64,000 nucleotides of DNA from Kocuria rosea subsp. polaris (GTDB lineage: Bacteria; Actinomycetota; Actinomycetes; Actinomycetales; Micrococcaceae): assembly GCF_001483755.1 (NCBI RefSeq), contig NZ_LQBK01000022.1, positions 9,992 through 73,991 of the forward strand, given 5' to 3'. Of the stretch, positions 2,799 through 50,244 are shown one piece after another. How positions within the stretch are numbered: position 1 is the first letter of the stretch; every line of letters starts with the position of its first letter. Below the pieces are notes generated by a model that saw only the letters and a list, made by a program, of their open reading frames with translations, made no database searches and was not told where the DNA came from. The position numbers and the translations under genes were made by a program.

Positions 2799-3662
2799 AT
2801 GGCATCCAGCAGCAGCACGACCCCCGACCCCCGGAACCGCGACGCCGCCCGGGAGCGGGCGCGGCAGGTCGCGGACCAGCACGCACGGCAGGACAAGCGC
2901 TCCCGCCGGATCCTGCAGCTGGGCATCCTCGCCCTGGTCCTCGTCATCGTCGCCGTGATCGGCATCGTGGTGGCGCAGAACCGGGCCCAGCAGATCCCCG
3001 AGGCCGGGCCCGTCCCGGCCAGCGCCAACCAGTGGGGCGGCACGGTGCTCACGGCGGACGGGATCCGCACCGGCGAGTCGGAGGTCCAGGAGCGCGACCT
3101 CGGTGAGGTCCCCGAGCCCCCGGAGACCCCGGACGAGTCCGCCGTCCCGCCGGGCGTCGAGGCCTCCGGTGACGACGAGCCCGTGCAGGTCGTGATCTTC
3201 CAGGACTTCGAGTGCGTGCACTGCGCCGACTTCGAGACCGAGAACGGGGAGGCGATCGAGGAGGCCGTGACCTCCGGCGACATCACCCTCGAGTACCGCA
3301 ACCTGAACTTCCTCGACCGCTCGACGCCGACGCAGTACTCGTCCCGGGCCGCGGCGGCCGCCTACGAGGTGGGCAACCAGGTCTCCACCGAGCAGTACCT
3401 GGCCTTCGTCGAGGAGGTGTTCTCCCACCAAGGCACCGGTGGGCTGGACGACGAGGAGCTCGTGGAGATCGCCTCCGCGCACGGCGCCGACATCGCGAGC
3501 GCACTCGAGGAGAACACCTGGCGGCCGATGGTCAACGTGGTCTCGCAGGAGTCCCTGGCCAACGGCGTGTCCGGCACCCCGACCGTCTTCATCGACGGCG
3601 AGCGGCTCGGCAACGAGCCGTTCCAGGACGCCCTCGACGCCGCCGTGGAGGCCAAGGAGTAG
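2799..3662 (+). CDS. Membrane-anchored DsbA-family thioredoxin-fold protein
   Basis: Thiol-disulfide oxidoreductase of the Thioredoxin_4/DsbA family, acting outside the membrane. A basic cytoplasmic N-terminus (residues 1-38) precedes one transmembrane segment (about 39-59), then an acidic linker and the catalytic domain. The active site is FQDFECVHCADFE with Cys139 and Cys142; GVSGTPTVFIDGE near the C-terminus holds the cis-proline. The start ATG at 2799 follows GAAGAGGA. Monocistronic: divergent from otsA and closed by a strong hairpin. Likely role is disulfide formation in exported proteins; the exact partners cannot be told from sequence. Confidence 0.9.
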   Translation: MASSSSTTPDPRNRDAARERARQVADQHARQDKRSRRILQLGILALVLVIVAVIGIVVAQNRAQQIPEAGPVPASANQWGGTVLTADGIRTGESEVQERDLGEVPEPPETPDESAVPPGVEASGDDEPVQVVIFQDFECVHCADFETENGEAIEEAVTSGDITLEYRNLNFLDRSTPTQYSSRAAAAAYEVGNQVSTEQYLAFVEEVFSHQGTGGLDDEELVEIASAHGADIASALEENTWRPMVNVVSQESLANGVSGTPTVFIDGERLGNEPFQDALDAAVEAKE

Positions 3663-3677
3663 GGTCCGCCCCCGCAG

Positions 3678-3726
3678 CAGCACGACGGCGCCGCGTCCCC
3701 GCCCGGGGTGCGGCGCCGTCGTGCTG
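3678..3726 (+). terminator. Hairpin terminator after the DsbA-like gene
   Basis: A 17-bp perfect stem (3678-3694 with 3710-3726) around a 15-nt loop starts 15 nt after the stop codon. There is no T-tract, as with most terminator hairpins in this window. Confidence 0.7.
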
Positions 3727-3832
3727 TACGAGCCGTGCCGGTGCGGGGGATTTCGGCGTCCCCCGGCGCGTCCGATATCCTGAGGAACCGGTTGCCCGGG
3801 CCGCACCCGTGCGGAGGCCCGAGAGCCGCTCC

Positions 3833-3909
3833 GCCTCCTTAGCTCAGCTGGCCAGAGCACCTGTCTTGTAAACAGGGGGTCACCGGTTCGAATCCGGTAG
3901 GGGGCTCCA
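3833..3909 (+). tRNA. tRNA-Thr (anticodon TGT)
   Basis: Complete cloverleaf. The acceptor stem GCCTCCT pairs with AGGGGGC, the D arm is GCTC/GAGC, the anticodon stem-loop is CCTGT-CTTGTAA-ACAGG with anticodon TGT, and the T arm is ACCGG-TTCGAAT-CCGGT. The 3' CCA is encoded (discriminator T, positions 3906-3909). The gene stands alone, and no integrase or duplicated 3' end is seen beside it. Confidence 0.96.
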
Positions 3910-4224
3910 CCGGTCCACGACTTTGCGGTCGCGACCACTCATGACGTCACATGTTGCGCGGAGATCTCGATCTGAGCTACAAGCCTGCTGTCCTCCGTGC
4001 GGCCACGGCAGGCGGGGCGGGCCCGGCTGGATCTCCTCGAAGAGTGTGCGCTGGTGAACACGGGCGTCGAGATCCGCGCCAACAGTGGGATCCGGAGCTC
4101 ACGTTGCGGAGGCCACCGACAATTCGGCCGGGGGCGGACCACGCCGGCGAGGGTCTGAGCACCACATGCCGCTCCGGGACTGCGGCGAGACAGAACCGTG
4201 ATCGCGATTCTCCCGGTCCGGGCC

Positions 4225-4254
4225 TTGAACCGTGACTCAGGACACTCCTACGGT
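4225..4254 (+). promoter_or_regulatory. Candidate promoter of the Asp/Arg-rich secreted protein
   Basis: TTGAAC (4225-4230) and TACGGT (4249-4254) are 18 bp apart. Transcription would begin near 4261, exactly where the first leader hairpin starts. The preceding stretch 3910-4224 shows no gene and no other clear element. Confidence 0.45.
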
Positions 4255-4260
4255 GTTCAT

Positions 4261-4333
4261 ACCTATCTCATAGGTGAGACCTCTTGCCCAGGTCTCGGAA
4301 CATCTCGATCGCATGACGATTCCCATGTCATGC
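4261..4333 (+). promoter_or_regulatory. Three consecutive hairpins in the 5' leader
   Basis: Three perfect inverted repeats follow one another: ACCTAT-CTC-ATAGGT (4261-4275), GAGACCT-N7-AGGTCTC (4276-4296) and GCATGAC-N9-GTCATGC (4311-4333). Next come the ribosome site AGGAG (4343-4347) and the ATG at 4354. They could be operators or RNA structures that control translation. I do not recognise a known riboswitch class. Confidence 0.55.
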
Positions 4334-4353
4334 CCATTCCACAGGAGCAATTC

Positions 4354-4965
4354 ATGAGTACTCTGCGGAAGACCCTCGTCGGCGCGGCCATGGCCGCCGC
4401 CCTCGTGGGAGGAACGGTTGCCACCCCGGCGGTCGCGGGGTCAGATGATAGTAAGCCCAAGGATGCCGCGAGTAAATACGACAAGGGGCGTGGCGGACAC
4501 GAGGATCGTGACCGGCGCGGGGACCACGACGGTGAGAAGGACCGGAAGGGCGACCGTCATCGCAACGGCGACGGCGACCGGGACCGCGAGAACAAGCACG
4601 ACCGTGACCGGGATCGGGATCGCCACGACAGGGACTGGGACCGCGACGACAGGGACCGGTACGACAGGGACCGCGACGACAAGGACCGGTACGACCGCGA
4701 CAAGGACCGGCACGACCGCGATGGCAAGGACCGTCACGACCACGACCGGTACGACCGGGACCGCGACCACCGCCACGACAAGGACGGCGACGACAAGAAG
4801 TACAACGGCCACGATCACCAGGATCACTGGTGGTACTGCGAGAAGCACGAGAAGTGGCACTTCTACGACGACGACAACAAGCGGAGCCGGGACCACCACG
4901 AGGACATGAAGGACGACGGCAAGCACGAGCACAAGAAGAATCACGACGACGACCACAAGCACTGA
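4354..4965 (+). CDS. Secreted Asp/Arg/His/Lys-rich repeat protein, unknown function
   Basis: Function not recognised. The 203 aa protein has a clear Sec signal peptide (basic start, hydrophobic stretch to about residue 24, cleavage after AVA at residue 28). The mature part is almost entirely Asp, Arg, Lys and His in imperfect repeats of the form DRDRYDRDRDDKDR, so it should be disordered. A short aromatic island with the only cysteine, WWYCEKHEKWHFYDDD, is followed by a His/Asp/Lys tail. The ATG at 4354 follows AGGAG at 7 nt; an upstream in-frame extension would place the signal peptide internally. Abundant His and Asp suggest cation binding (inference). It sits alone between a tRNA and a convergent hydrolase. 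Confidence 0.8.
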   Translation: MSTLRKTLVGAAMAAALVGGTVATPAVAGSDDSKPKDAASKYDKGRGGHEDRDRRGDHDGEKDRKGDRHRNGDGDRDRENKHDRDRDRDRHDRDWDRDDRDRYDRDRDDKDRYDRDKDRHDRDGKDRHDHDRYDRDRDHRHDKDGDDKKYNGHDHQDHWWYCEKHEKWHFYDDDNKRSRDHHEDMKDDGKHEHKKNHDDDHKH

Positions 4966-5095: not shown

Positions 5096-5977
5096 TCAGC
5101 CGGTCCTGCCGCCGTCGACCGCCGCCGTGTGCTCGAGGACGACGTCGGCCAGGGGGCCGAGCACGCTGTGCGGCAGGGCGTGGCCCAGGCCGGGGACCGT
5201 CACGAGGCGGGCGGACCCGATCGACGCCGCGAGGTGCTGGGCATGGGGCGGCGGGTTCACAGGGTCCTCGGGCGCCTCGACGACCAGCACGGGCACCGTG
5301 ACGCCGGCGAGTTCCCCGGCGCGGTCCAGGCCGGACTGATCGGCCAGCGCGTGCGCCGCCGGGTTGTCCGCGGTCCCCGAGTGGGCGACGACGCGCTCCT
5401 CCAGGCGCCGGAACTCCTCCGGGTCGAACGGCAGCGCGTCGCCGTTGAGGATCCGCCAGTGCTCGACCCGCCACAGGATCTCCTCGTCCGGGTCGCGCGG
5501 GTCGGCCAGGTGCTGCCACAGCTCCAGCAGGCGCGGATCGGGCCCCGGGAGGTCGACGTCACCGGCGCCGGACGGATCGGCCAGGCCGGCGCCGAGCGCG
5601 GACGTCGCGAGGACCGTGGCGCTGAGCAGCCGGCCGGGGTGGTCGAGCAGGAGGAGCTGCACGAGCGTGCCGCCCATCGACATGCCCACCGCGTGCGCCC
5701 GGTCGAGGCCGAGGGCGTCCAGGACCGCGACCGCGTCCGCGGCGAGGTCGCGCAGCGCGTACGGGTGCTCGGCGAAGGCGCGGGTGGATCGGCCGGTGTC
5801 GCGGTGGTCGTAGCGCACCACGCGGTGCCGGGCGCCCAGGCGGGCCACCAGCTCGTCAGGCCAGGTCGCGCCGGACGCGTTGGCGCCCATCACCAGGAGC
5901 AGGGGCGAGCCCTCGGGACGGCCCGTCTCCTCCACCCACAGCTCGTAGTGCTCGTCCGCCCGCACCGTCCGTTCCAT
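5096..5977 (-). CDS. Alpha/beta-fold hydrolase
   Basis: A 293 aa serine hydrolase. The nucleophile elbow is GMSMGG, the oxyanion region is LLVMGANASG, the acid-bearing strand is VVEAPEDPVNPP and the catalytic His lies in GLGHALPH. The pattern VVRYDHRDTGRS is typical of the aclacinomycin-methylesterase/RdmC-like group, but the substrate cannot be told. The ATG at 5977-5975 was chosen because the family fold starts right after it and because GATACT lies exactly 7 nt upstream, as for a leaderless mRNA. A longer in-frame extension to 6208 has no family similarity. Confidence 0.88.
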   Translation of the reverse strand: MERTVRADEHYELWVEETGRPEGSPLLLVMGANASGATWPDELVARLGARHRVVRYDHRDTGRSTRAFAEHPYALRDLAADAVAVLDALGLDRAHAVGMSMGGTLVQLLLLDHPGRLLSATVLATSALGAGLADPSGAGDVDLPGPDPRLLELWQHLADPRDPDEEILWRVEHWRILNGDALPFDPEEFRRLEERVVAHSGTADNPAAHALADQSGLDRAGELAGVTVPVLVVEAPEDPVNPPPHAQHLAASIGSARLVTVPGLGHALPHSVLGPLADVVLEHTAAVDGGRTG

Positions 5978-5984
5978 GACGACC

Positions 5985-5990
5985 AGTATC
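5985..5990 (-). promoter_or_regulatory. -10 element for a leaderless hydrolase mRNA
   Basis: GATACT on the minus strand ends 7 nt before the ATG, so transcription would begin at or next to the start codon. A weak CTGTCG lies 17 nt further upstream. Confidence 0.5.
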
Positions 5991-6186
5991 GTCCCCCCGC
6001 GGGGGCGCCGACAGGGCCGACAGGGGAGGGGCCCGGAGGACACGGGCCGTGCTTCCGGGCGTCCGGCGCCGCGCCGTGATGCTATCGGTGGACGCACGCG
6101 GGACGAGCTGCTCCCCGCGGCGTCCGTCGTCCGAGCCGGGCCCCCCGCACCTGTTCCGGCGCTCCCGGGCGACGGCTCCCCCCTGG

Positions 6187-8682
6187 GTGCACGACGCCGC
6201 ACCCGCACCGACCCTGGAGGGCACCCTGGTACCCATCACCCGACGACGCGCGCGCCCCTCCGCCGCGGCGGCGTCGATCCTGTTGCTGCTCGTGCTCCTC
6301 GTCGCACCGGCCGGCCCGGCCCGGGCGGCGGAGCACGCCGAGCCCGACGGCCCGTATCTGGGGGCGCTGCTGGACTGGGGCGAGGACACGGCGGCCGGCC
6401 ACGCCGAGCGCCTCGGCGCACCGGCGGCCGTGTACGGCCGGCCGGTTCCGCTGCCGATGAGCGAGCAGGAGCAGGGCCACCTGCGGGACTACTTCTCCCA
6501 GGTCTCCGGGCAGGGCGCCCACGCCCTGCTCACGATCCGTCCCGAGATCTCGCTCGGCCGGGTGGACGAGGCACGGGCCGCCGTCCTGGCGGAGCAGCTG
6601 GCGGACGCCGCCGAGGGATACGCCGGCAGGCTCTTCGTCCGCTTCGCCCCGCAGATGAACGCCTCCTGGGTGCCGTGGGGGCAGCAGCCCCGGGCGTACA
6701 CGGAGGCGTTCCGGACGGTGGCGGCCGCCGTGGACGCCGAGCTCGGGGAGCCGGTCATGGTCTGGTCGCCCACGGCCGGCACGGACTACCCCTTCCGCGC
6801 CCCGTCCGGCGACCCTCCGCCGGGTGCTGACCTGGCGTCCCTGGACACGAGCGGCGACGGCGTCTGGGACCATGACGACGACCCCTACGGTCCCTACTAT
6901 CCGGGCGACGACCTCGTCGACTGGGTCGGTCTCGTGGCCCCGCACGACGAGACGGGCAGCGGACCGGCCCGCAACGTCATGCCCTCGCCGGGGTCGTTCG
7001 GCGCCCTGCTGGGATCCGCGGGAGGGGCGGGGCCGTCGGAGGAGGACGACTTCTACGCCGCCTACGCCCTCGGCCGCGAGAAACCGCTCATGGTCGAGAC
7101 GGGGGCCTTCTACAGCCCGGGAGCGGGCGGCCCGTCCGAGGAGGACATCAAGTCGGCCTGGTGGGACCAGGTGCTCGCCACGGTCTCCTCGGGCGACCAC
7201 GACCGCGTCCGCGCGGTGGTGTGGAACGAGACGGTCGAGCAGCGCGAGAACGGTGCGGTGACCGTTGACTGGAGGATCACGGCCGACCCCGCCCTGGCCT
7301 CGGCGGCCGGCGACCGGATGCAGGACTCCGCCCTGGTCACCGGGCCCGTCACCGAACGGTCGGATCTGCCGGGCGCCGGTCCCGCGGCGACGGGGTCCGT
7401 GCTCCAGGGCCCGGCCGCGTGGGCAGGGGCGCTCGCCGTGCCGGCCCTGGCGACGCTGCTGTGGGTCCTCCCGCTCCGGGGGCCGGCGAGGGCGTGGGCG
7501 TACGCGGACCCCTCCCGGCGGGACCTCCGCATCGACATGCTGCGCGGGGCGGCCATCGTGTTCGTGGTGGTCAACCACGTGGGGATCACCTCGGTGTTCC
7601 AGCTGCTGACGCAGGAGACCGTCGGCGTCGTCTCGGGGGCCGAGCTGTTCGTCCTGCTCTCCGGGGCGGTCCTGGGCATGGTGCACGGGCCGCGGGCCAA
7701 GGACGAAATCGGGGTCGTGGTCGACCGCACGACCTCGCGGGCCTGGAAGCTCTACGTGACCGCCCTGGTCGTGGTGCTGGCCGTCTACGGGCCCAGCCTG
7801 CTCCCCTTCCTGGACGCGGGCGCCGTGACCACCTTCACGGACCAGGGCACCGGGGCCGCCGGGGTCGGTGCCGCGGGCGCCACGTACGACCTCTACTCCG
7901 GGATGGACGGACTCCTGCAGTTCCCCGTTCCCGCCCACCTGATCCCGTCGCTGTTCCTGCTGCAGATCGGCCCGTGGCAGTTCGACATCATGGGGCTGTA
8001 CGTGGTCCTGCTGCTGGTGAGCCCCCTGGTCCTCGCCGCCCTGGCGCGCGGTCGCGCGTGGCTGGTCCTCACCGTCAGCCTGGCCCTCTACGCGACGGGC
8101 ACCGTCTTCCGGATCCGGCTGCTGCCGTCCCAGTTCGAGGACTCGTTCCCCCTGCTGGTGTGGCAGGTGCTGTTCGTCCTCGGCATGACGGCCGGCCACC
8201 ACCGGCGGCAGCTCGTCGACTGGTTCTCCCGGCACCGCCCCGTGCTGGGGGCCTGCCTCGCGACGGCCGTCGCCCTCGCGCTCTTCTCCTGGACCAGCCC
8301 GTACCTCACCAACGCCTACGACGTCCGGCTGGCCCTGCTGCCGGAGTCGACGTTCCGCACGGTCTACGACGCCTTCTTCGGGCGGACCTACCTGGGGATC
8401 GGCCGGCTGGTGAACGTGCTCCTCGTGGTGGTGGCCGGCTACACCGTGCTCAGTGCCTACTGGCGCCCGCTCGAGCGCGCGCTCGGATGGTTCCTCGTCC
8501 CCCTGGGGCAGGCCACCCTGTACGTGTTCGTCATGCACGTGTTCCTGATCCTGGCCGTGGCCAACGTTCCCGCCCTGCAGCAGGGGAACCTGTGGGTCAA
8601 CACCGTCGCCTATGTCCTGGTCCTCGGCCTGCTGTGGGGCATGGTCCGGACCGGGTTCCTGTTCCGGCTCGTCCCCCGGTGA
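6187..8682 (+). CDS. GH26-like domain fused to an OpgC-family membrane acyltransferase
   Basis: About 831 aa. After a signal-peptide-like segment ending in ARAAEH comes a GH26 (beta-mannanase-like) domain, about residues 50-420, then an OpgC/acyltransferase-3 membrane domain from about residue 445 that opens with DMLRGAAIVFVVVNH and has roughly ten transmembrane helices. In GH26 enzymes the acid/base Glu lies in a HEMN motif; here it reads APQMNASW, so Gln156 replaces Glu, while the nucleophile-type Glu304 (MVETGAF) is kept. The GH26 part may therefore bind rather than cut glycan. OpgC proteins add succinyl or other acyl groups to extracytoplasmic glucans. The start is uncertain: GTG 6187 is used here; ATG 6079 and a CTG at 6226 with GGAGG 5 nt upstream are alternatives. 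Confidence 0.82.
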   Translation: MHDAAPAPTLEGTLVPITRRRARPSAAAASILLLLVLLVAPAGPARAAEHAEPDGPYLGALLDWGEDTAAGHAERLGAPAAVYGRPVPLPMSEQEQGHLRDYFSQVSGQGAHALLTIRPEISLGRVDEARAAVLAEQLADAAEGYAGRLFVRFAPQMNASWVPWGQQPRAYTEAFRTVAAAVDAELGEPVMVWSPTAGTDYPFRAPSGDPPPGADLASLDTSGDGVWDHDDDPYGPYYPGDDLVDWVGLVAPHDETGSGPARNVMPSPGSFGALLGSAGGAGPSEEDDFYAAYALGREKPLMVETGAFYSPGAGGPSEEDIKSAWWDQVLATVSSGDHDRVRAVVWNETVEQRENGAVTVDWRITADPALASAAGDRMQDSALVTGPVTERSDLPGAGPAATGSVLQGPAAWAGALAVPALATLLWVLPLRGPARAWAYADPSRRDLRIDMLRGAAIVFVVVNHVGITSVFQLLTQETVGVVSGAELFVLLSGAVLGMVHGPRAKDEIGVVVDRTTSRAWKLYVTALVVVLAVYGPSLLPFLDAGAVTTFTDQGTGAAGVGAAGATYDLYSGMDGLLQFPVPAHLIPSLFLLQIGPWQFDIMGLYVVLLLVSPLVLAALARGRAWLVLTVSLALYATGTVFRIRLLPSQFEDSFPLLVWQVLFVLGMTAGHHRRQLVDWFSRHRPVLGACLATAVALALFSWTSPYLTNAYDVRLALLPESTFRTVYDAFFGRTYLGIGRLVNVLLVVVAGYTVLSAYWRPLERALGWFLVPLGQATLYVFVMHVFLILAVANVPALQQGNLWVNTVAYVLVLGLLWGMVRTGFLFRLVPR

Positions 8683-8695
8683 GATCCCGGGGGCC

Positions 8696-8751
8696 GGGCG
8701 GATCCGGCCGGGCGGGTCCGGCCGGGCGGATCCGGCCGGGCGGGTCCGGCC
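8696..8751 (+). repeat. Perfect 28-bp tandem duplication built of 14-mers
   Basis: Two identical 28-bp copies (8696-8723, 8724-8751). Each is made of two near-identical 14-mers, GGGCGGATCCGGCC and GGGCGGGTCCGGCC. It starts 13 bp after the acyltransferase stop. Confidence 0.85.
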
Positions 8752-8965
8752 GAGAGGATCGGGGGTGCGGCGAGCGGACGGACCGCCGTTCATGACGGCC
8801 GGTCACTGCCTCCGGCCAGCACGTATGACGCCGCCGGCACGGACCCGGGGCGACGGTGGCCGCCGGATGCTAGTTTGCGGCTGCTCATTCTCGTCGTTCC
8901 GGCGAGGCGCCACCCCCAGCGCGCTCGCCGTCGGCGGAGAGCCCGCTCCCCCCGGAAGGCCCCCC

Positions 8966-10021
8966 ATGCCTGCTCCCGTTCCTCCCCGTGCCCTGTTCTC
9001 CCTCACGGCCGCCGCCGCCGCGGTCGCCCTGGGTCTGACGGCCGTCCCCGCGGCCCACGCCGGCCTGTCGGTCCACTCCCCGAGCGGTCCGACGGCGCTC
9101 GCCGCGGCGAAGAAGCCGGTCCGGTCCGTCGCGGTCGCGCCGGCCGAACCCCAGCTCCGCACGTGCCCGCTGCGCTTCGGCGTCGGCACGGCCGGTGGTC
9201 CCGGGGCCTCCGCCGAGCTCGCCGAGGTGGCCGCGCTGACCGGGGAGAAGCCCTCGATCGTGCTCTCCTACAAGGACTTCCGCCAGCCCGTGCCCTACTG
9301 GGAGCTGGAACAGACCCGCGCGTCCGGGGCGACCACCCTCCTGACCTGGGAGCCGTGGGTCTGGGGCGGCGGGACCGACCAGCCCGCCCACTCCCTGGAC
9401 GCGATCGCCTCGGGCGCCCACGACGCCCACATCACCGACTGGGCCACCCGTCTGGCCGACTGGGGCTCCCCGGTGATGCTGCGCTTCGGCCACGAGATGA
9501 ACGGGAACTGGTACCCGTGGTCCGAGGGGGTCAACGGCAACGGCGCCGGGGACTACGTGGCCGCCTGGCGGCACGTCCACGACATCTTCACCGCTGCCGG
9601 GGCGGACAACGTCCAGTGGGTGTGGAACCCGAACGTCCCGTACTACGGGTCCACACCCCTGGACGGGCTCTACCCCGGCGCCGGGTACGTGGACGTCGTC
9701 GCCCTGGACGGCTACAACTGGGGCACCTCCCAGACGTGGTCCAGCTGGCAGCAGCCGTGGGACCTGTTCGCCTACGGGCTGTCCGAGATGCGGCGCCTGG
9801 CCCCGGGCAAGGAGATCATCGTCGCCGAGACCGCCGGCGCCGAGGCCGGGGGCTCCAAGGCCGAGTGGAACGCCCACCTGGTGCACTACTTGGCGCAGCA
9901 GCCCGACGTCACGGGCCTCGTCTGGTTCCACCTGGACAAGGAGGTGGACTGGCGGATCGACTCCTCCACCGCATCGGCCCAGTCCCTGGCGGCCGAGCTC
10001 GCGAAGCGCCCCTGTCCGTGA
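8966..10021 (+). CDS. Secreted glycoside hydrolase family 26 (beta-mannanase-like)
   Basis: A 351 aa exported glycosidase. The ATG at 8966 gives a clean Sec signal peptide (hydrophobic core about residues 10-24, cleavage near AAHA at 28-32). The GH26 catalytic signature RFGHEMNGNWYPW contains acid/base Glu177, and IIVAETAG contains nucleophile Glu288, so both catalytic residues are present. Family members hydrolyse beta-1,4-mannans or mixed-linked glucans. It lies 283 nt after the GH26-like/OpgC gene, which carries a degenerate copy of the same domain, suggesting duplication followed by divergence. An endogenous exopolysaccharide or a dietary mannan are both possible targets. Confidence 0.9.
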   Translation: MPAPVPPRALFSLTAAAAAVALGLTAVPAAHAGLSVHSPSGPTALAAAKKPVRSVAVAPAEPQLRTCPLRFGVGTAGGPGASAELAEVAALTGEKPSIVLSYKDFRQPVPYWELEQTRASGATTLLTWEPWVWGGGTDQPAHSLDAIASGAHDAHITDWATRLADWGSPVMLRFGHEMNGNWYPWSEGVNGNGAGDYVAAWRHVHDIFTAAGADNVQWVWNPNVPYYGSTPLDGLYPGAGYVDVVALDGYNWGTSQTWSSWQQPWDLFAYGLSEMRRLAPGKEIIVAETAGAEAGGSKAEWNAHLVHYLAQQPDVTGLVWFHLDKEVDWRIDSSTASAQSLAAELAKRPCP

Positions 10022-10095
10022 CGGCGGTGGCACGGCGCGCCACACGGTGTCACGCGAATCACAAAAGCAAACCGTCCGTGTAGCGTGACCCCCAC

Positions 10096-10142
10096 GACCG
10101 GCGCCGTGCCACCGCTCATCCGGAGGTGGCACGGCGCCGGTC
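10096..10142 (+). terminator. Large perfect hairpin between the GH26 gene and the lipoprotein gene
   Basis: An 18-bp perfect stem (10096-10113 with 10125-10142) around an 11-nt loop, 75 nt after the GH26 stop and 35 nt before the lipoprotein ATG. No T-tract. It may terminate the upstream transcript or form part of the next leader. Confidence 0.6.
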
Positions 10143-10176
10143 GGTCCCCCCCAGGACCGTGTCGAGGAGTCCCCCC

Positions 10177-10812
10177 ATGGCAGTCACCTTCCCCCCACCA
10201 CCCGGCCGCCGGCTCGGACCCGTCTGCGCCGCCCTGCTCGTCGTCGCGCTGGCGGGATGCGCCGAGAACGAGGGGCCGAGTGCCACCACGGCCCCCAGCA
10301 CGAGCCCGCCCGCGGTCTCGGACGGGCCCGCGCCCACGGCGACCGGCGCTGCCGCGACGCCGAGCGCCGGCCCCGCGCCGTCGGGCAACGACGTGGCCCC
10401 CTACGACGCCACCTCCACGCGGGACGCCGCCGGGTCCTTCGGCACGGCCCAGCGGCTCGACGGCTCCCTGGAGGCCGTGGTGGAAGGCCCCCGCCCCGCG
10501 ACCACGGGGGAGCGTCCCGTCCGGGCCGCTCCGGGCACCCCGGTCCAGGTGTTCACGCTGACCCTCACCAACACCGGCAGCACCCCGGTCGACGCCGTGC
10601 CGTGGTCCTTCCCGGTCGCCGTCGCCGGTGCGGAGCCGGCGGTCCCCGTCTTCGACGAGTCCCTGGGCGTGCCGATGGAGACCTTTCCGACCATCGCCCC
10701 CGGGGAGAGCGCCTCCCTCGAGGTCGCCTTCGCCGCGGCGCACGACGCCGAGCTGGCCGTGCGCGTCTTCGCCACCACCACCCCCGACCACTACGTCGAG
10801 TTCACCGACTGA
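10177..10812 (+). CDS. Putative lipoprotein with a DUF4352-like domain
   Basis: A 211 aa predicted lipoprotein. The signal ends in the lipobox LAGC with the lipidated Cys at residue 28; the ATG at 10177 follows GAGGAG. A Thr/Pro/Ala-rich linker (about 30-90) leads to a beta-sandwich region with VFTLTLTNTGSTPVDAVPW, the pattern of DUF4352/immunoprotective extracellular domains, and GESASLEVAFAAAHDAELAV near the end. The function is unknown; such domains are usually surface binding modules. It is 21 nt upstream of the LGFP-repeat gene, so the two are probably one operon. Confidence 0.78.
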   Translation: MAVTFPPPPGRRLGPVCAALLVVALAGCAENEGPSATTAPSTSPPAVSDGPAPTATGAAATPSAGPAPSGNDVAPYDATSTRDAAGSFGTAQRLDGSLEAVVEGPRPATTGERPVRAAPGTPVQVFTLTLTNTGSTPVDAVPWSFPVAVAGAEPAVPVFDESLGVPMETFPTIAPGESASLEVAFAAAHDAELAVRVFATTTPDHYVEFTD

Positions 10813-10833: not shown

Positions 10834-13062
10834 ATGAAGATCTCAGCTCTGCGCATCCCCGCCGCGGTCGCGGCCTGTTTCGCGGTCGTGCTCGCCGGTG
10901 CCCCGGGGGCGTCCGCGGCCCCGTCCGCTCCCGCTCCCGGCGTCTCGGCCGGTCCGACGACGACGCCCGGTCCCGCCGCGGGCACCGTCGCGGCAGCCGT
11001 CCGGCTCGAGCCGGTGGACGACGCGTCCACCGTGCCCGCCGGGCGCACCGCACTCCTCGACGTCCTGTCCAACGACGGCCTCGACGAGCCCTCGGCGGTG
11101 CGGCTCCGGCTCGTGGACCCCGCGGCCGACGACCCCGACGACGAGCTCGTCGATGCACTGCGCACGGACCTCGGGTCCCTGCGCGTGGTGTCCCCGGACG
11201 CGGAGTCCGAGTCCCTGCCCGAGGACTGGGAGCTCCCCGGGCACCCGGTCCTCGCCCTGGAGCCCTCCCCGGACCGGCCGGCCGACGCCCCGCCGGTGGA
11301 GGTGGCCTACGCGGTGGTGGACGCCTCGGGCGCCGAGGCGCGGGCCGTGCTCACGGTCGCCCCCGACCTCGAGAGCCAGGCGCCCCCGGGCCCCTCCGCC
11401 GGGCCCACCGGCCCGGCGGAGGAGAAGCTGCCGGCAGATCCGACGGGCTCGGCCGGACCGATCGCCCCGGCCGAGCGGGCGGTCACCGCCGAGCCGACCG
11501 CGGAGCCATCCGCGGGAGCGGAGCCCGCCGAGGAGCGAGCGGCCGCACCGGAGGCCGGGTCGCAGGAGACGGCGGCCGCGGCCGCCGCGGAGGACGTGGA
11601 CGTGCCCGTCGAGATCCGGGAGGCGCTCGAGGCCGCCGCGGTCCGGGCGGCGGCCCGGACCGGGGCGCCCACTGCGGGGATGCGCCCCTGGAAGGGCGGC
11701 TGGGAGTGGCCGCACGAGCGGGGCGTGGTCCTGTGGTCGGAGGCGCACGGCGCGCACTTCGTGCAGCTCCGGGGCGCGATCGGCCACCGCTGGACCCTCG
11801 GGGGCGGGGTCGACACCCTGGGCTGGCCCGTCGACGACGAGTCCTGCCACCTCGTGGGCGGCGGGTGCCGGCAGTCCTTCTCGAAGAACCGCACGGTCTT
11901 CTGGACCTCAGCCACGGGGGCCCGGACCGTGAACATGCGGGGCGCGATCGGCCACAAGTGGATCCGCGGCGGGCGCGAGGCCGGGACCTACGGGTACCCC
12001 ACCACCGACGAGATCTGCGGGTCGTCCGGCGGGTGCCGGCAGTCCTTCTCGAACAACCGCACGGTCTTCTGGACCTCAGCCACGGGGGCCCGGACCGTGA
12101 ACACCCGGGGCGCGATCGGCCACAAGTGGATCCGCGGCGGGCGCGAGGCCGGGACCTACGGGTACCCCACCACCGACGAGATCTGCGGCCTGGCCGGGGG
12201 CGGGTGCCGGCAGTCCTTCACCAGGGCCCACACGATCTACTGGAGCTCCGCCACCGGAGCGCGGGCCGTGAAGACGAACGGTGCCATCGGGCAGCGGTGG
12301 ATCGCCACGGGACGCGAGCGGGGCTCCCTCGGCTACCCCGTCACGGACGAGATCGGCACCGGGAGCGTGCACCAGACCTTCCAGCGGGGACTCGTCACCT
12401 GGAGCCGCGCCACCGGGGCGCGGACGCACCTGTTCCGCGGGGAGTGCCACCACCTCAACACGGGGCGCTCCGTGCAGCCGACCCGCAACGCGGCGCGCGT
12501 GTCCCTGACCATCGCGGAGGGCTACGGGCGCTCCCAGGCCACCTTCGTCAACTGCGTGCGCATCGGCGGCAGCTACGTGGAGGAGTGGCGGACGTCGGCC
12601 TACGTGGGCGCGAGCGGCTTCAAGCGCCCTGGCGTGCCCTCGGGGCACACGCAGTACCTGTACTCGCCGCAGGGCTCGTACTCGGTCACGGAGTCCTTCG
12701 GGGTCTACAACCCGGGCACCGCGCTTCCCTACCGGCAGCTCAACCCGAACTCCCGGTGGGGCGGGCGCCTGGGCACGCTCTACAACAAGTACTTCGAGTC
12801 GACCGGCTACACCTGGCCGGACGAGAACATGTGGTACTTCTCGCTCTCCGGCGACTACCGGCTGGGCGTGGTGATCAACTACAACCGCCCGCCGGACTCG
12901 ACCATCGTCCAGGGCAACGGCTTCGCGATCTTCCTGCACGCCAACAAGAAGCCCACCGCGGGGTGCATCGCCCTGCACGAGCACGAGGTGGCGCGGTACA
13001 TGCGCACCGCGCGGCCCGGTGACCGGATCATCATGGGCGTCCGGGCGGACCTGTTCCGCTGA
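10834..13062 (+). CDS. Secreted LGFP-repeat protein with C-terminal YkuD-like L,D-transpeptidase domain
   Basis: 742 aa. A signal peptide (about 1-29) is followed by a cadherin/Ig-like segment containing VDDASTVPAGRTALLDVLSN, a long Ala/Pro/Glu linker (about 180-280), four or five LGFP repeats (about 290-530, pattern GAIGHKWIRGGREAGTYGYP) and a C-terminal domain. That domain has FAIFLHANKKPTAGCIALHE, the His and Cys arrangement of YkuD-type transpeptidases, with Cys in AGCIA. LGFP repeats bind the envelope in actinobacteria; YkuD domains cross-link peptidoglycan or attach proteins to it. It probably anchors to the wall and remodels it. Two adjacent LGFP repeats are almost identical in DNA. 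Confidence 0.87.
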   Translation: MKISALRIPAAVAACFAVVLAGAPGASAAPSAPAPGVSAGPTTTPGPAAGTVAAAVRLEPVDDASTVPAGRTALLDVLSNDGLDEPSAVRLRLVDPAADDPDDELVDALRTDLGSLRVVSPDAESESLPEDWELPGHPVLALEPSPDRPADAPPVEVAYAVVDASGAEARAVLTVAPDLESQAPPGPSAGPTGPAEEKLPADPTGSAGPIAPAERAVTAEPTAEPSAGAEPAEERAAAPEAGSQETAAAAAAEDVDVPVEIREALEAAAVRAAARTGAPTAGMRPWKGGWEWPHERGVVLWSEAHGAHFVQLRGAIGHRWTLGGGVDTLGWPVDDESCHLVGGGCRQSFSKNRTVFWTSATGARTVNMRGAIGHKWIRGGREAGTYGYPTTDEICGSSGGCRQSFSNNRTVFWTSATGARTVNTRGAIGHKWIRGGREAGTYGYPTTDEICGLAGGGCRQSFTRAHTIYWSSATGARAVKTNGAIGQRWIATGRERGSLGYPVTDEIGTGSVHQTFQRGLVTWSRATGARTHLFRGECHHLNTGRSVQPTRNAARVSLTIAEGYGRSQATFVNCVRIGGSYVEEWRTSAYVGASGFKRPGVPSGHTQYLYSPQGSYSVTESFGVYNPGTALPYRQLNPNSRWGGRLGTLYNKYFESTGYTWPDENMWYFSLSGDYRLGVVINYNRPPDSTIVQGNGFAIFLHANKKPTAGCIALHEHEVARYMRTARPGDRIIMGVRADLFR
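11862..12200 (+). repeat. Recently duplicated LGFP repeat units
   Basis: The unit at 11862-12029 (168 bp, 56 aa) is repeated at 12030-12200 (171 bp). Over about 158 bp the copies differ only at the codons around 11885 and 11936, which is far closer than to the third unit starting at 12201. This points to recent in-frame duplication or gene conversion. Confidence 0.85.
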
Positions 13063-13140: not shown

Positions 13141-13743
13141 CTACTCGACCGTCTCCTCCACCTTGGCCTGACCACGGCGGCCGAGGGCCCACAGCAGCAG
13201 CTCGCTCGGCGCGGCGCGGAGCACGCGCACGGTCCCGGTCCGGCCGCGGCCGCCGCGGACGGCGCCGTAGGACGGGGCGATGAGCACCACGGTGTCCTCC
13301 TCATCCTTGAGCGCGACCTTGGCCAGCAGGCTCAGGGACCGCCACAGCGCCTGCTCCTCGTCGTGCAGCAGCGGACGCTCGTGCCACTGGGGCTGGGCCC
13401 GGCGGACGTCCTCGTGGTGGACGAAGTACTCCACGGTGTTCATCCGCTTGTCCACCGGCCCCAGCCGCGCGGGCGAGTACAGCGGAGGGTGCTCCACCTT
13501 CCGCACGAGCTCGTCCCACGGCTGGCTCGCGACGGCCTGCTCGGCACGGCGGGTGCGCTCGCCGAGCACGGGCACCCGCGGCAGCACCCTTCCGGCGAGC
13601 AGATCGGGGCGCCCCGCGCGCAGCACGAGGTGCACGGCGAGGTCACGGGTCCTCCAGCCTTCGCACAGGGTGGGGGCGTCAGGGCCCAGGCGGCGCAGGA
13701 GCGCGGCGAGGTGCCGGCGCTCGACGTTGGCGAAATTGGTCAC
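13141..13743 (-). CDS. TIGR03085 family metal-binding protein
   Basis: A 200 aa member of the DinB/mycothiol-dependent enzyme superfamily. Typical features are NVERRHLAALL at the start, CEGWRTRDLAVHLVLRAGRP, and MNTVEYFVHHEDVRRAQP, where His residues would ligate a divalent metal. Mycothiol is the actinobacterial thiol, and family members act in mycothiol-dependent isomerisation or detoxification; the substrate of TIGR03085 proteins is not known. The start is GTG at 13743-13741, with GAGGAGGA 5 nt upstream; the longer frame to 13908 is repeat-derived. Confidence 0.85.
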   Translation of the reverse strand: MTNFANVERRHLAALLRRLGPDAPTLCEGWRTRDLAVHLVLRAGRPDLLAGRVLPRVPVLGERTRRAEQAVASQPWDELVRKVEHPPLYSPARLGPVDKRMNTVEYFVHHEDVRRAQPQWHERPLLHDEEQALWRSLSLLAKVALKDEEDTVVLIAPSYGAVRGGRGRTGTVRVLRAAPSELLLWALGRRGQAKVEETVE

Positions 13744-13866
13744 GTGGATCCTCCTCGTGGCGCCGCCGCCGGTCGGCGGGGCCGTCCCGACGACCACGCT
13801 ATACCGGGCGCCCCGCCGCCAGGAACCGGCGCGGCGCGCTCCCGGACCGTCCGCGCGGGAGCGGCG

Positions 13867-14052
13867 GGGCCGGGCACCATTTGCGGGGGCCGGTGGGCCA
13901 GGCACCATTTGCGGGGGCCGGTGGGCCAGGCGCCATCTGCGGGGAACCAGTGGGCCCGGGCACCATCCGCGGGGAACCAGTGGGCCCGGGCACCATCCGC
14001 GGGGAACCGGTGGGGCCGGGCACCATCTGCGCGGGGCCGGCAGGTGCAGGCC
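13867..14052 (+). repeat. Minisatellite of 28-30 bp units
   Basis: Six or seven copies of a unit centred on GGGCCNGGCACCATNTGCGG, with CACCAT-type cores at 13875, 13903, 13931, 13961, 13991 and 14021 and a decayed copy at 14051. Spacing changes from 28 to 30 bp part way through. It fills the whole gap between two minus-strand genes and runs into the end of the DUF3817 gene. Confidence 0.85.
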
Positions 14053-14508
14053 TCAGCCGCGCGGGACCGGCGGGCCCAGATACAGGAGCACCGAGGCGAG
14101 GCCTGCGACCACGACCGCGCCCGCCGCCACCGCCAGCCACGGGCTGCGGAGGGACCAGGCCTCCAGCCTCTCCAGCACGGTGGTGGGACGGTCGCCGCCG
14201 GGGGCCAGGCGCCAGCCGCCCTCGAGCCGGCCCGAGCGCTGTGCACGGCGCTCGAAGGGGATCGTGGCGTACGGGACGAAGGCGCTCGCCAGGCCCAGCG
14301 CCCCGAAGCCCGCGGTCCACCGCTGGTCCACCCAGACGAAACAGGTCACCACGCAGTACCCCAGGAACACCAGCCCGTGCAGCATGCCGAAGACGGGGAC
14401 GAAGGCCGCCGAGACCCCCGTGTACTTCAGGACCATGCCGAGGATCAGCAGCGTCCAGGTCACCGCCTCTGCGAGGGCGAAGCGTCCGTAGAGCTCACGG
14501 GGTGTCAT
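14053..14508 (-). CDS. DUF3817 domain membrane protein
   Basis: A 151 aa integral membrane protein. The opening LYGRFALAEAVTWTLLILGM, the KYTG after it, and VFGMLHGLVFLGYCVV match the DUF3817 family, with about three helices in the first 90 residues. An extra C-terminal helix (about 125-145) follows a basic loop. The function of the family is unknown. The C-terminal codons are written over the end of the minisatellite, so the exact C-terminus may vary between strains. Confidence 0.82.
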   Translation of the reverse strand: MTPRELYGRFALAEAVTWTLLILGMVLKYTGVSAAFVPVFGMLHGLVFLGYCVVTCFVWVDQRWTAGFGALGLASAFVPYATIPFERRAQRSGRLEGGWRLAPGGDRPTTVLERLEAWSLRSPWLAVAAGAVVVAGLASVLLYLGPPVPRG

Positions 14509-49760: not shown

Positions 49761-50083
49761 AGCGGTCCCGTCCCGGATGTGTGGACGTTCACAAGCTACA
49801 TTCCGCCAGTCCGCTCCCCGACGGGCTCCCGGAGCGCACCGGCCCTGGTGGGACGCGGTTTTTGCGGGCTCCGAAGGGCACTGCACAGGGCGTCACAGGG
49901 GCAAATTCTTCTTCTGTGAAGACTCAATTCCGCGGGATTGATATGGTGCTCGTTGCCTCTTCGTGATCGGTCGTGATCAAAACGTGACACTTCCGTAATC
50001 TGTCATGTACTGTTCAACGCGTGCTGATCACTGGTCGGATCGGCGCCCACGAAGCACATCGCCGAATTCTGCCGGTGCCCGTG

Positions 50084-50226
50084 GCCTCTACACAGAAACT
50101 GCTTGGCAGAAGCGGGGGAACCATTTTCGGTCCCGGTGATCCGGGTCCTTGGGGTTAAGTCGTCAGAGCGCGTGCGTTCTGCGGCCGGGTGTCTCCCACC
50201 CGAATCCGACAGCTCACCTCGTAGGC
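50084..50226 (+). ncRNA. c-di-AMP riboswitch (ydaO/yuaA type)
   Basis: Leader RNA of the NlpC/P60 gene. Class-specific conserved blocks are present in order: GCGGGGGAACCA (50112-50123), CTTGGGGTTAAG (50148-50159), CCCGAATCCGACAGCT (50199-50214) and CACCTCGTAGGC (50215-50226), with closing P1 arms GCCTCTAC (50084) and GTAGGC (50221). The boundaries are approximate. In this class c-di-AMP binding usually turns expression off; cell-wall hydrolase genes are its commonest actinobacterial targets. The ribosome site follows directly. Upstream, 49800-50080 is unusually AT-rich and should hold the promoter. Confidence 0.9.
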
Positions 50227-50244
50227 AAAGGGAGGAACTCAACC

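Follow-up and report, generated by a model that had tools for sequence, protein, structure and literature searches.

The gene at positions 6187 to 8682 of a 64,000-nucleotide stretch of Kocuria rosea subsp. polaris DNA (contig NZ_LQBK01000022.1; the whole stretch is referred to here as the window) encodes a protein in which a glycosidase-like domain of the GH26 type, devoid of an intact catalytic pair, is fused to a membrane acyltransferase of the OpgC type. On balance, we incline to the view that the dead, lichenase-type domain guides the OpgC-type acylation of an exopolysaccharide, which is produced by an associated glycosyltransferase of family GT2. The OpgC/TmAT half would move a presumed acyl group from cytoplasmic acyl-CoA across the membrane onto a sugar on the outside, while the N-terminal lichenase-type GH26 barrel, located outside the cell and having lost the ability to cut, would hold the glycan chain beside the acyltransferase. 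Most likely, this glycan is made by the cellulose-synthase-like GT2, which shares an operon with genes for a PP2C phosphatase, a STAS protein and a HATPase; the polymer is probably a beta-glucan, either cellulose-like or with mixed linkages. The intact GH26 enzyme encoded next door may trim or degrade the same polymer. If this is true, a former polymer-trimming glycosidase has been turned into the substrate-holding arm of a decorating enzyme. The fusion gene and its parts are located as follows:

6187 to 8682, forward strand: fusion gene (831 amino acids) encoding a signal peptide, the pseudo-GH26 domain, a linking helix and the OpgC acyltransferase domain.
6340 to 7359, forward strand: domain with predicted GH26 fold, about amino acids 52 to 391, delimited by the AlphaFold model and the identity to a paralogue.
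6649 to 6660, forward strand: PQMN, the degraded acid/base motif (P155-Q156-M157-N158).
6844 to 6879, forward strand: EF-hand-like acidic loop DTSGDGVWDHDD, amino acids 220 to 231, common to intact relatives.
7096 to 7098, forward strand: E304 in the nucleophile motif KPLMVE(304)TG, on a strand that lacks one residue compared with intact relatives.
7411 to 7479, forward strand: hydrophobic helix between both domains, amino acids 409 to 431.
7519 to 8652, forward strand: OpgC_C / TmAT acyltransferase domain, amino acids 445 to 822, delimited by Pfam PF10129 and the model.
7534 to 7578, forward strand: acyltransferase motif DxxR plus Rx10H (D450, R453, H464).

The enclosing open reading frame spans positions 6049 to 8682 on the forward strand, and the protein was read from the GTG codon at 6187; this start is not proven, and a GTG at 6229 is an alternative. 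A scan of positions 5900 to 10200 for promoters and terminators found nothing. The GH26-fold half probably faces the outside of the cell.

The N-terminal half is placed in the GH26 fold because of its identity to a paralogue, the matches of this paralogue in the PDB and its own predicted structure. Pfam GH26 (PF02156) gave no match in this half at E<=0.01, and the complete fusion, used as a phmmer query against the PDB, returned no match. The half shares 41% identity with a stand-alone paralogue of the same genome (G000:C2:7853-8839), which itself matches PF02156 (32 bits; cut-off 20.2) and, in a phmmer search of the PDB, the lichenase CtLic26A (5.7e-07) as well as several mannanases. The structure of the fusion was predicted with AlphaFold2 from a 78-row alignment (A2) of 58 fusions and 20 stand-alone relatives, which is also the basis of the tree and the indel count. 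The model consists of a barrel and a helical half (mean predicted local distance difference test score, pLDDT, 87.0). The barrel (amino acids 51 to 392) best matches CtLic26A (2bv9; Z 26.0, compared with about 23 for mannanases; root-mean-square deviation 2.9, 267 aligned residues, 20% identity), followed by other GH26 enzymes, and nearly all of the top 30 structural matches are GH26 entries. It is thus predicted from the model that the N-terminal half is a (beta/alpha)8 barrel of the GH26 type. D220 and D231 of the loop DTSGDGVWDHDD are invariant across A2, and the motif suggests a putative calcium-binding site.

For the C-terminal half, the sequence-only reading, which had described an OpgC-type membrane domain in the same chain, was borne out by Pfam: OpgC_C (PF10129) matches amino acids 445 to 822 with an E-value of 8.9e-67 and 226 bits (cut-off 21.4), covering profile positions 1 to 352 of 358. 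OpgC_C and the related Acyl_transf_3 are the only Pfam matches in the fusion at E<=0.01; an SGNH domain was not matched at this threshold, the extra domain being the GH26 barrel. Modelled alone, the helical half reached a pLDDT of 89.5 and resembled HGSNAT (Z 21.4, root-mean-square deviation 4.3, 303 aligned residues), followed by GWT1 (Z 12.9) and a next entry at 4.2. Foldseek returned nothing at E<=0.001, and its best match was again HGSNAT (E 0.044, probability 1.00). A TmAT fold is therefore predicted for this half by the model, and domain search and structure prediction together bear out the sequence-only reading of both halves: OpgC by Pfam, and the GH26 and TmAT folds by modelling. Rx10H forms part of the acyltransferase motif, and D450, R453 and H464 are invariant in all 89 distinct fusions described below. 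DxxR is named as an acyltransferase motif in the accessible part of PMC12423673.

In total, 97 in-frame fusion sequences were collected, including that of the window, after one partial fusion (L209) had been dropped, and 89 of them have distinct domain cores; chance or an assembly artefact is therefore a very unlikely origin of the gene. Among 245 family genomes, 17 OpgC copies were found in 16 genomes in frames of 820 to 1086 amino acids; all 17 align as fusions, and no OpgC without the GH26-like domain was seen in these genomes. A phylum sample of 396 genomes added one more fusion (G457) and four OpgC proteins in frames of 400 to 442 amino acids. Among the best 80 of 229 relatives from named genomes, whose loci were fetched and to which the counts of named loci are confined, 62 are from Micrococcaceae, 14 from Microbacteriaceae and 4 from Nocardioidaceae, and the named rows nearest to the fusion of the window are from Kocuria; the fusions of the family genomes and of the named genomes overlap in some strains. 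NCBIfam assigns no family to the fusion. The sequence-only reading knew of no description of the fusion, and no description of OpgC with GH26 was indeed found: among the papers listed in a literature search, which left out most subscription journals, none had a title or opening abstract describing the fusion or a PP2C-GT2-STAS-HATPase operon.

In the fusion of the window, the acid/base position is occupied by Gln156 and preceded by Pro155, so that the motif reads PQMN; the neighbouring GH26 gene encodes HEMN with Glu177, as had been read correctly from the sequence. HEMN is retained in none of the 89 distinct fusions. The residue at the acid/base position is Asp in 61 of them, Glu in 19, Gln in 8 and Ala in 1. 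The exchange of Glu for Gln, noted in the sequence-only reading, is thus not a signature of the family; the idea of a dead glycosidase fold holds insofar as the protein lacks an intact catalytic pair and the domain is conserved across genera. At the nucleophile position, Gln (46), Glu (34), Arg (5), His (2) and Asp (2) are found, i.e., Glu has been lost in 55 of 89 fusions. Both Glu residues are present in 11 fusions (six Paenarthrobacter-like rows, Aeromicrobium, two Clavibacter, one Nocardioides and G457). The residue preceding the acid/base position is Pro in 89/89 fusions and His or Gln in intact relatives. After removal of L033 (broken frame) and L036 (the same gene as L038), 31 stand-alone relatives remained, of which 29 have HEMN or QEMN plus the nucleophile Glu; the two exceptions, L026 and L043, are of the Pro type, have lost the nucleophile and carry a single transmembrane helix at the C-terminus. 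In A2, the stretch between the conserved P300 and T305, the Thr that follows the nucleophile, is shortened by one residue in all 60 Pro-type domains and in none of the 18 intact relatives, and E304 of the window may therefore not occupy the catalytic position. The claim that the nucleophile-type Glu is kept thus stands for the residue itself; the strand that carries it is altered.

A tree of the 78 rows, from which residues 155, 156 and 304 were excluded and which was built by a quick method with five long end branches flagged, places the Pro-type domains on one side of a branch (Shimodaira-Hasegawa-like approximate likelihood ratio test, SH-aLRT, 100) and implies no fewer than 13 changes at the nucleophile position and six at the acid/base position. 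Common to the whole clade, as judged from the alignment, are a Pro where intact relatives have His or Gln and the deletion of one residue before the nucleophile; Gln at the acid/base position is a minority variant. The Pro and the deletion may have come first, followed by a drift of the two Glu residues.

The fusions are associated with a recurrent gene module, mostly in the order PP2C phosphatase, GT2, STAS and HATPase, as seen in fusion loci extending over up to 20 kb and GT2 loci extending over up to 18 kb. The GT2 is cellulose-synthase-like (Pfam Cellulose_synt 7.1e-23; 3.8e-70 to the solved BcsA); it stays below the curated CelA cut-off (354.9 vs 699.1 bits), and no PilZ match was found in the two GT2 proteins scanned. 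The STAS protein is of the anti-sigma antagonist type (above the cut-off), the HATPase belongs to HATPase_c_2, and the PP2C phosphatase is of the SpoIIE type, with a match to SiaA only far below the cut-off. At E<=1e-60, the GT2 is present in 16/16 fusion genomes compared with 45/245 family genomes; it was also found in G457 and in none of the four genomes with a stand-alone OpgC. Within 9-kb flanks, the GT2 gene lies near the fusion in 11 of 12 loci of Microbacteriaceae, 3 of 3 loci of Nocardioidaceae and 22 of 67 loci overall, counting loci with full flanks. Fusion and module share a strand in Nocardioides, Aeromicrobium and one Clavibacter, with the fusion gene following the module; in two of the Nocardioides loci, no HATPase was detected. 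The module is a neighbourhood of the fusion common to loci of three families. A Pro-type domain with one transmembrane anchor was found in G006, a genome without any OpgC match; it adjoins both the module and a GH26 gene like that next to the fusion in the window. Two such proteins lacking OpgC were located:

8675 to 10078 of locus L081 (G006): Pro-type GH26-like protein with a single C-terminal transmembrane helix.
3098 to 4189 of locus L043 (G099): Pro-type GH26-like protein with a single C-terminal transmembrane helix.

The module of the window's own genome (L130; G000:C40:195600-213600) and those of loci L131 to L169 consist of a cellulose-synthase-like enzyme with what appears to be its own partner switch. 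One genome of the same genus (G161) encodes two fusion copies (L082, L083) and two GT2 copies, and only one of the fusion copies has a GT2 gene inside its 20-kb locus. In three further loci (L039, L022 and L045 of G063, G137 and G152), a diverged GT2 (about 49 to 59% identity) adjoins an intact stand-alone GH26-like protein.

The polymer can be narrowed down to some extent. Osmoregulated periplasmic glucan is probably not the acceptor and was rejected, since MdoG/OpgG was found in 0 of the 17 fusion genomes searched; the E. coli control was matched. A clue comes from the gene following the fusion:

8966 to 10021, forward strand: lichenase-like GH26 gene that retains HEMN and probably encodes a signal peptide (Pfam PF02156, 3e-13).

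Its product matches CtLic26A in the PDB with 5.3e-45 and the next different enzyme with 4.5e-12, and Glu177 of this product, numbered from a start at 8966, corresponds in the alignment to residue 109 of the CtLic26A chain, the acid/base Glu of that enzyme. GH26 genes of this type are present in several fusion/GT2 loci. Mannan would thus be less favoured as the polymer, given that by sequence the neighbouring GH26 is much nearer, and by model the barrel somewhat nearer, to CtLic26A than to mannanases. In Romboutsia, a GT2 of a Gram-positive bacterium makes mixed-linkage beta-glucan, according to the available part of PMC10374906. It can tentatively be suggested, with less confidence than the guiding role as such, that the GT2 without PilZ is controlled by the PP2C/STAS/HATPase partner switch of its own operon instead of cyclic di-GMP and makes a beta-glucan, which is acylated by OpgC while being gripped by the dead lichenase domain.

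Several observations weigh against a dead domain that guides acylation of the GT2 product. Activity of the glycosidase domain is possible in the eleven fusions that have both Glu residues. The co-occurrence of GT2 and fusion (hypergeometric p 1.3e-13) was calculated with kinship ignored, and within the genus of the window it is supported by 2 of 18 genomes (p 0.0065). Distant synthases may escape the threshold of 1e-60, as exemplified by G605, which fails it and yet has a diverged relative (L080). In Micrococcaceae, the GT2 gene lies inside 9 kb in just 8 of 52 loci with full flanks, and in the genome of the window the fusion is found on contig C22 and the GT2 module on contig C40. Furthermore, the fusion is missing from 29 of the 45 genomes with the GT2; acylation of the polymer would therefore be optional.

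It is conceivable, though unlikely, that the GH26-like domain is dead and OpgC active but that the acceptor is another envelope glycan, such as lipomannan or a wall polymer, the link to the GT2 reflecting shared ecology or kinship. Succinylated lipomannan is known from Micrococcus, although the literature search did not confirm this, GH26 enzymes are mostly mannanases, and the fusion occurs in Micrococcaceae; the 44 Micrococcaceae loci with the GT2 outside 9 kb and the 29 GT2 genomes without a fusion would also fit. However, this explanation accounts poorly for the presence of the GT2 in every fusion genome, its absence from the four genomes with stand-alone OpgC, the gene neighbourhood common to three families and the closeness of the barrel to a beta-glucan lichenase.

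Less probable still is an inert domain, i.e., a leftover or spacer without contact to a glycan. The variability of the catalytic residues and the failure of Pfam GH26 to recognize the domain are in line with this idea; however, dN/dS (the ratio of nonsynonymous to synonymous substitution rates) of the GH26-like domain is 0.28 to 0.38 in five pairs, compared with 0.21 to 0.36 for the OpgC half, which shows that the barrel is not decaying and is under purifying selection. Moreover, 22 of 320 columns of the domain have zero entropy in the 89 fusions, among them W161, W164, W193, W325, W346 and Y201; these six residues are likewise unchanged across the 78 rows of A2, intact relatives included. All 17 OpgC copies of the 245 family genomes carry the domain.

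That the domain still cuts or transfers glycans, via E304 or an altered mechanism, seems quite improbable: E304 is present here, 34 of the 89 fusions have Glu at the nucleophile position and 11 have both Glu residues, but the acid/base position of the window is Gln, Pro replaces His or Gln throughout the fusions, and the nucleophile strand is short in all Pro-type domains. A direct part of the domain in acyl transfer, as thought for the final transfer by the SGNH domain of AT3-SGNH proteins in the accessible part of PMC9558356, is most improbable, because the domain, despite its probable location on the same extracytoplasmic side, lacks a Ser, Cys or His that is strictly invariant in the 89 fusions, and its invariant Tyr, Asp and Lys are common to intact glycosidase relatives.

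Some further features of the window were recorded. A tandem repeat of about five copies of the 14-bp GC-rich unit GGCCGGGCGGATCC is located at 8692 to 8760, downstream of the fusion and ahead of the intact GH26 gene. Upstream, positions 4198 to 4965 encode a low-complexity protein in which Asp, Arg, His and Lys are abundant; the DNA has tandem repeats at 4616 to 4794, and the protein has no Pfam match at E<=0.01. Downstream, positions 10834 to 13062 encode a protein with LGFP repeats and an L,D-transpeptidase (YkuD) domain; tandem repeats of 168 bp are located at 11858 to 12272. To this protein and to the neighbouring GH26, NCBIfam likewise assigns no family. Imperfect tandem repeats of about 30 bp are located at 13867 to 14079, partly inside a reverse-strand frame (13141 to 13908). 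In addition, a c-di-AMP riboswitch (ydaO leader) was found at 50052 to 50239 on the forward strand and an msiK RNA at 177 to 235 on the reverse strand.

For AT3-only acyltransferases, the accessible part of PMC9558356 raises the questions whether they act alone or need a partner, and what restricts their acceptor. Since a recognizable glycan-handling barrel is attached to the acyltransferase here, the barrel allows a guess at the acceptor. With no fewer than 13 changes at the nucleophile, the repeated loss of catalytic residues would clearly exemplify how a glycosidase becomes a non-cutting part. The PP2C-GT2-STAS-HATPase genes suggest that relatives of Arthrobacter, Microbacterium, Nocardioides, Clavibacter and Kocuria have an exopolysaccharide system.

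Among known systems, the bacterial cellulose synthase operon is similar in that the associated GT2 is BcsA-like and a GH26 gene is located nearby in several loci, the hydrolase of the cellulose synthase operon being BcsZ. It differs in that the two GT2 proteins scanned have no PilZ match, the GT2 remains below the CelA cut-off, and STAS, HATPase and PP2C genes adjoin. The wps-1 cluster of Actinoplanes missouriensis likewise contains a GH26 protein, WpsE, in an actinobacterial exopolysaccharide cluster; it uses a Wzx/Wzy pathway, however, and OpgC is not mentioned in the available part of the source (PMC13390465). CtLic26A is the best fold match of the barrel, but in the fusion its acid/base Glu is replaced, Pro precedes this position and a membrane acyltransferase is attached. 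With the succinyltransferase OpgC/MdoC, the fusion shares the Pfam domain PF10129, the predicted TmAT fold and the motif. Known OpgC/MdoC proteins are stand-alone and succinylate osmoregulated periplasmic glucans, as far as the accessible part of PMC9558356 describes them, whereas the fusion has an additional N-terminal GH26-like domain and occurs in genomes in which MdoG was not found (0/17). Accessory domains of AT3/TmAT enzymes named in the available parts of PMC9558356 and PMC12423673 are SGNH, NRF and, in VanT, a racemase. According to the same sources, the AT3-SGNH proteins OafB and OatA also combine a membrane acyltransferase with an extracytoplasmic accessory domain; theirs, however, is a catalytic SGNH domain at the C-terminus, whereas that of the fusion is an N-terminal glycosidase barrel without the catalytic pair.

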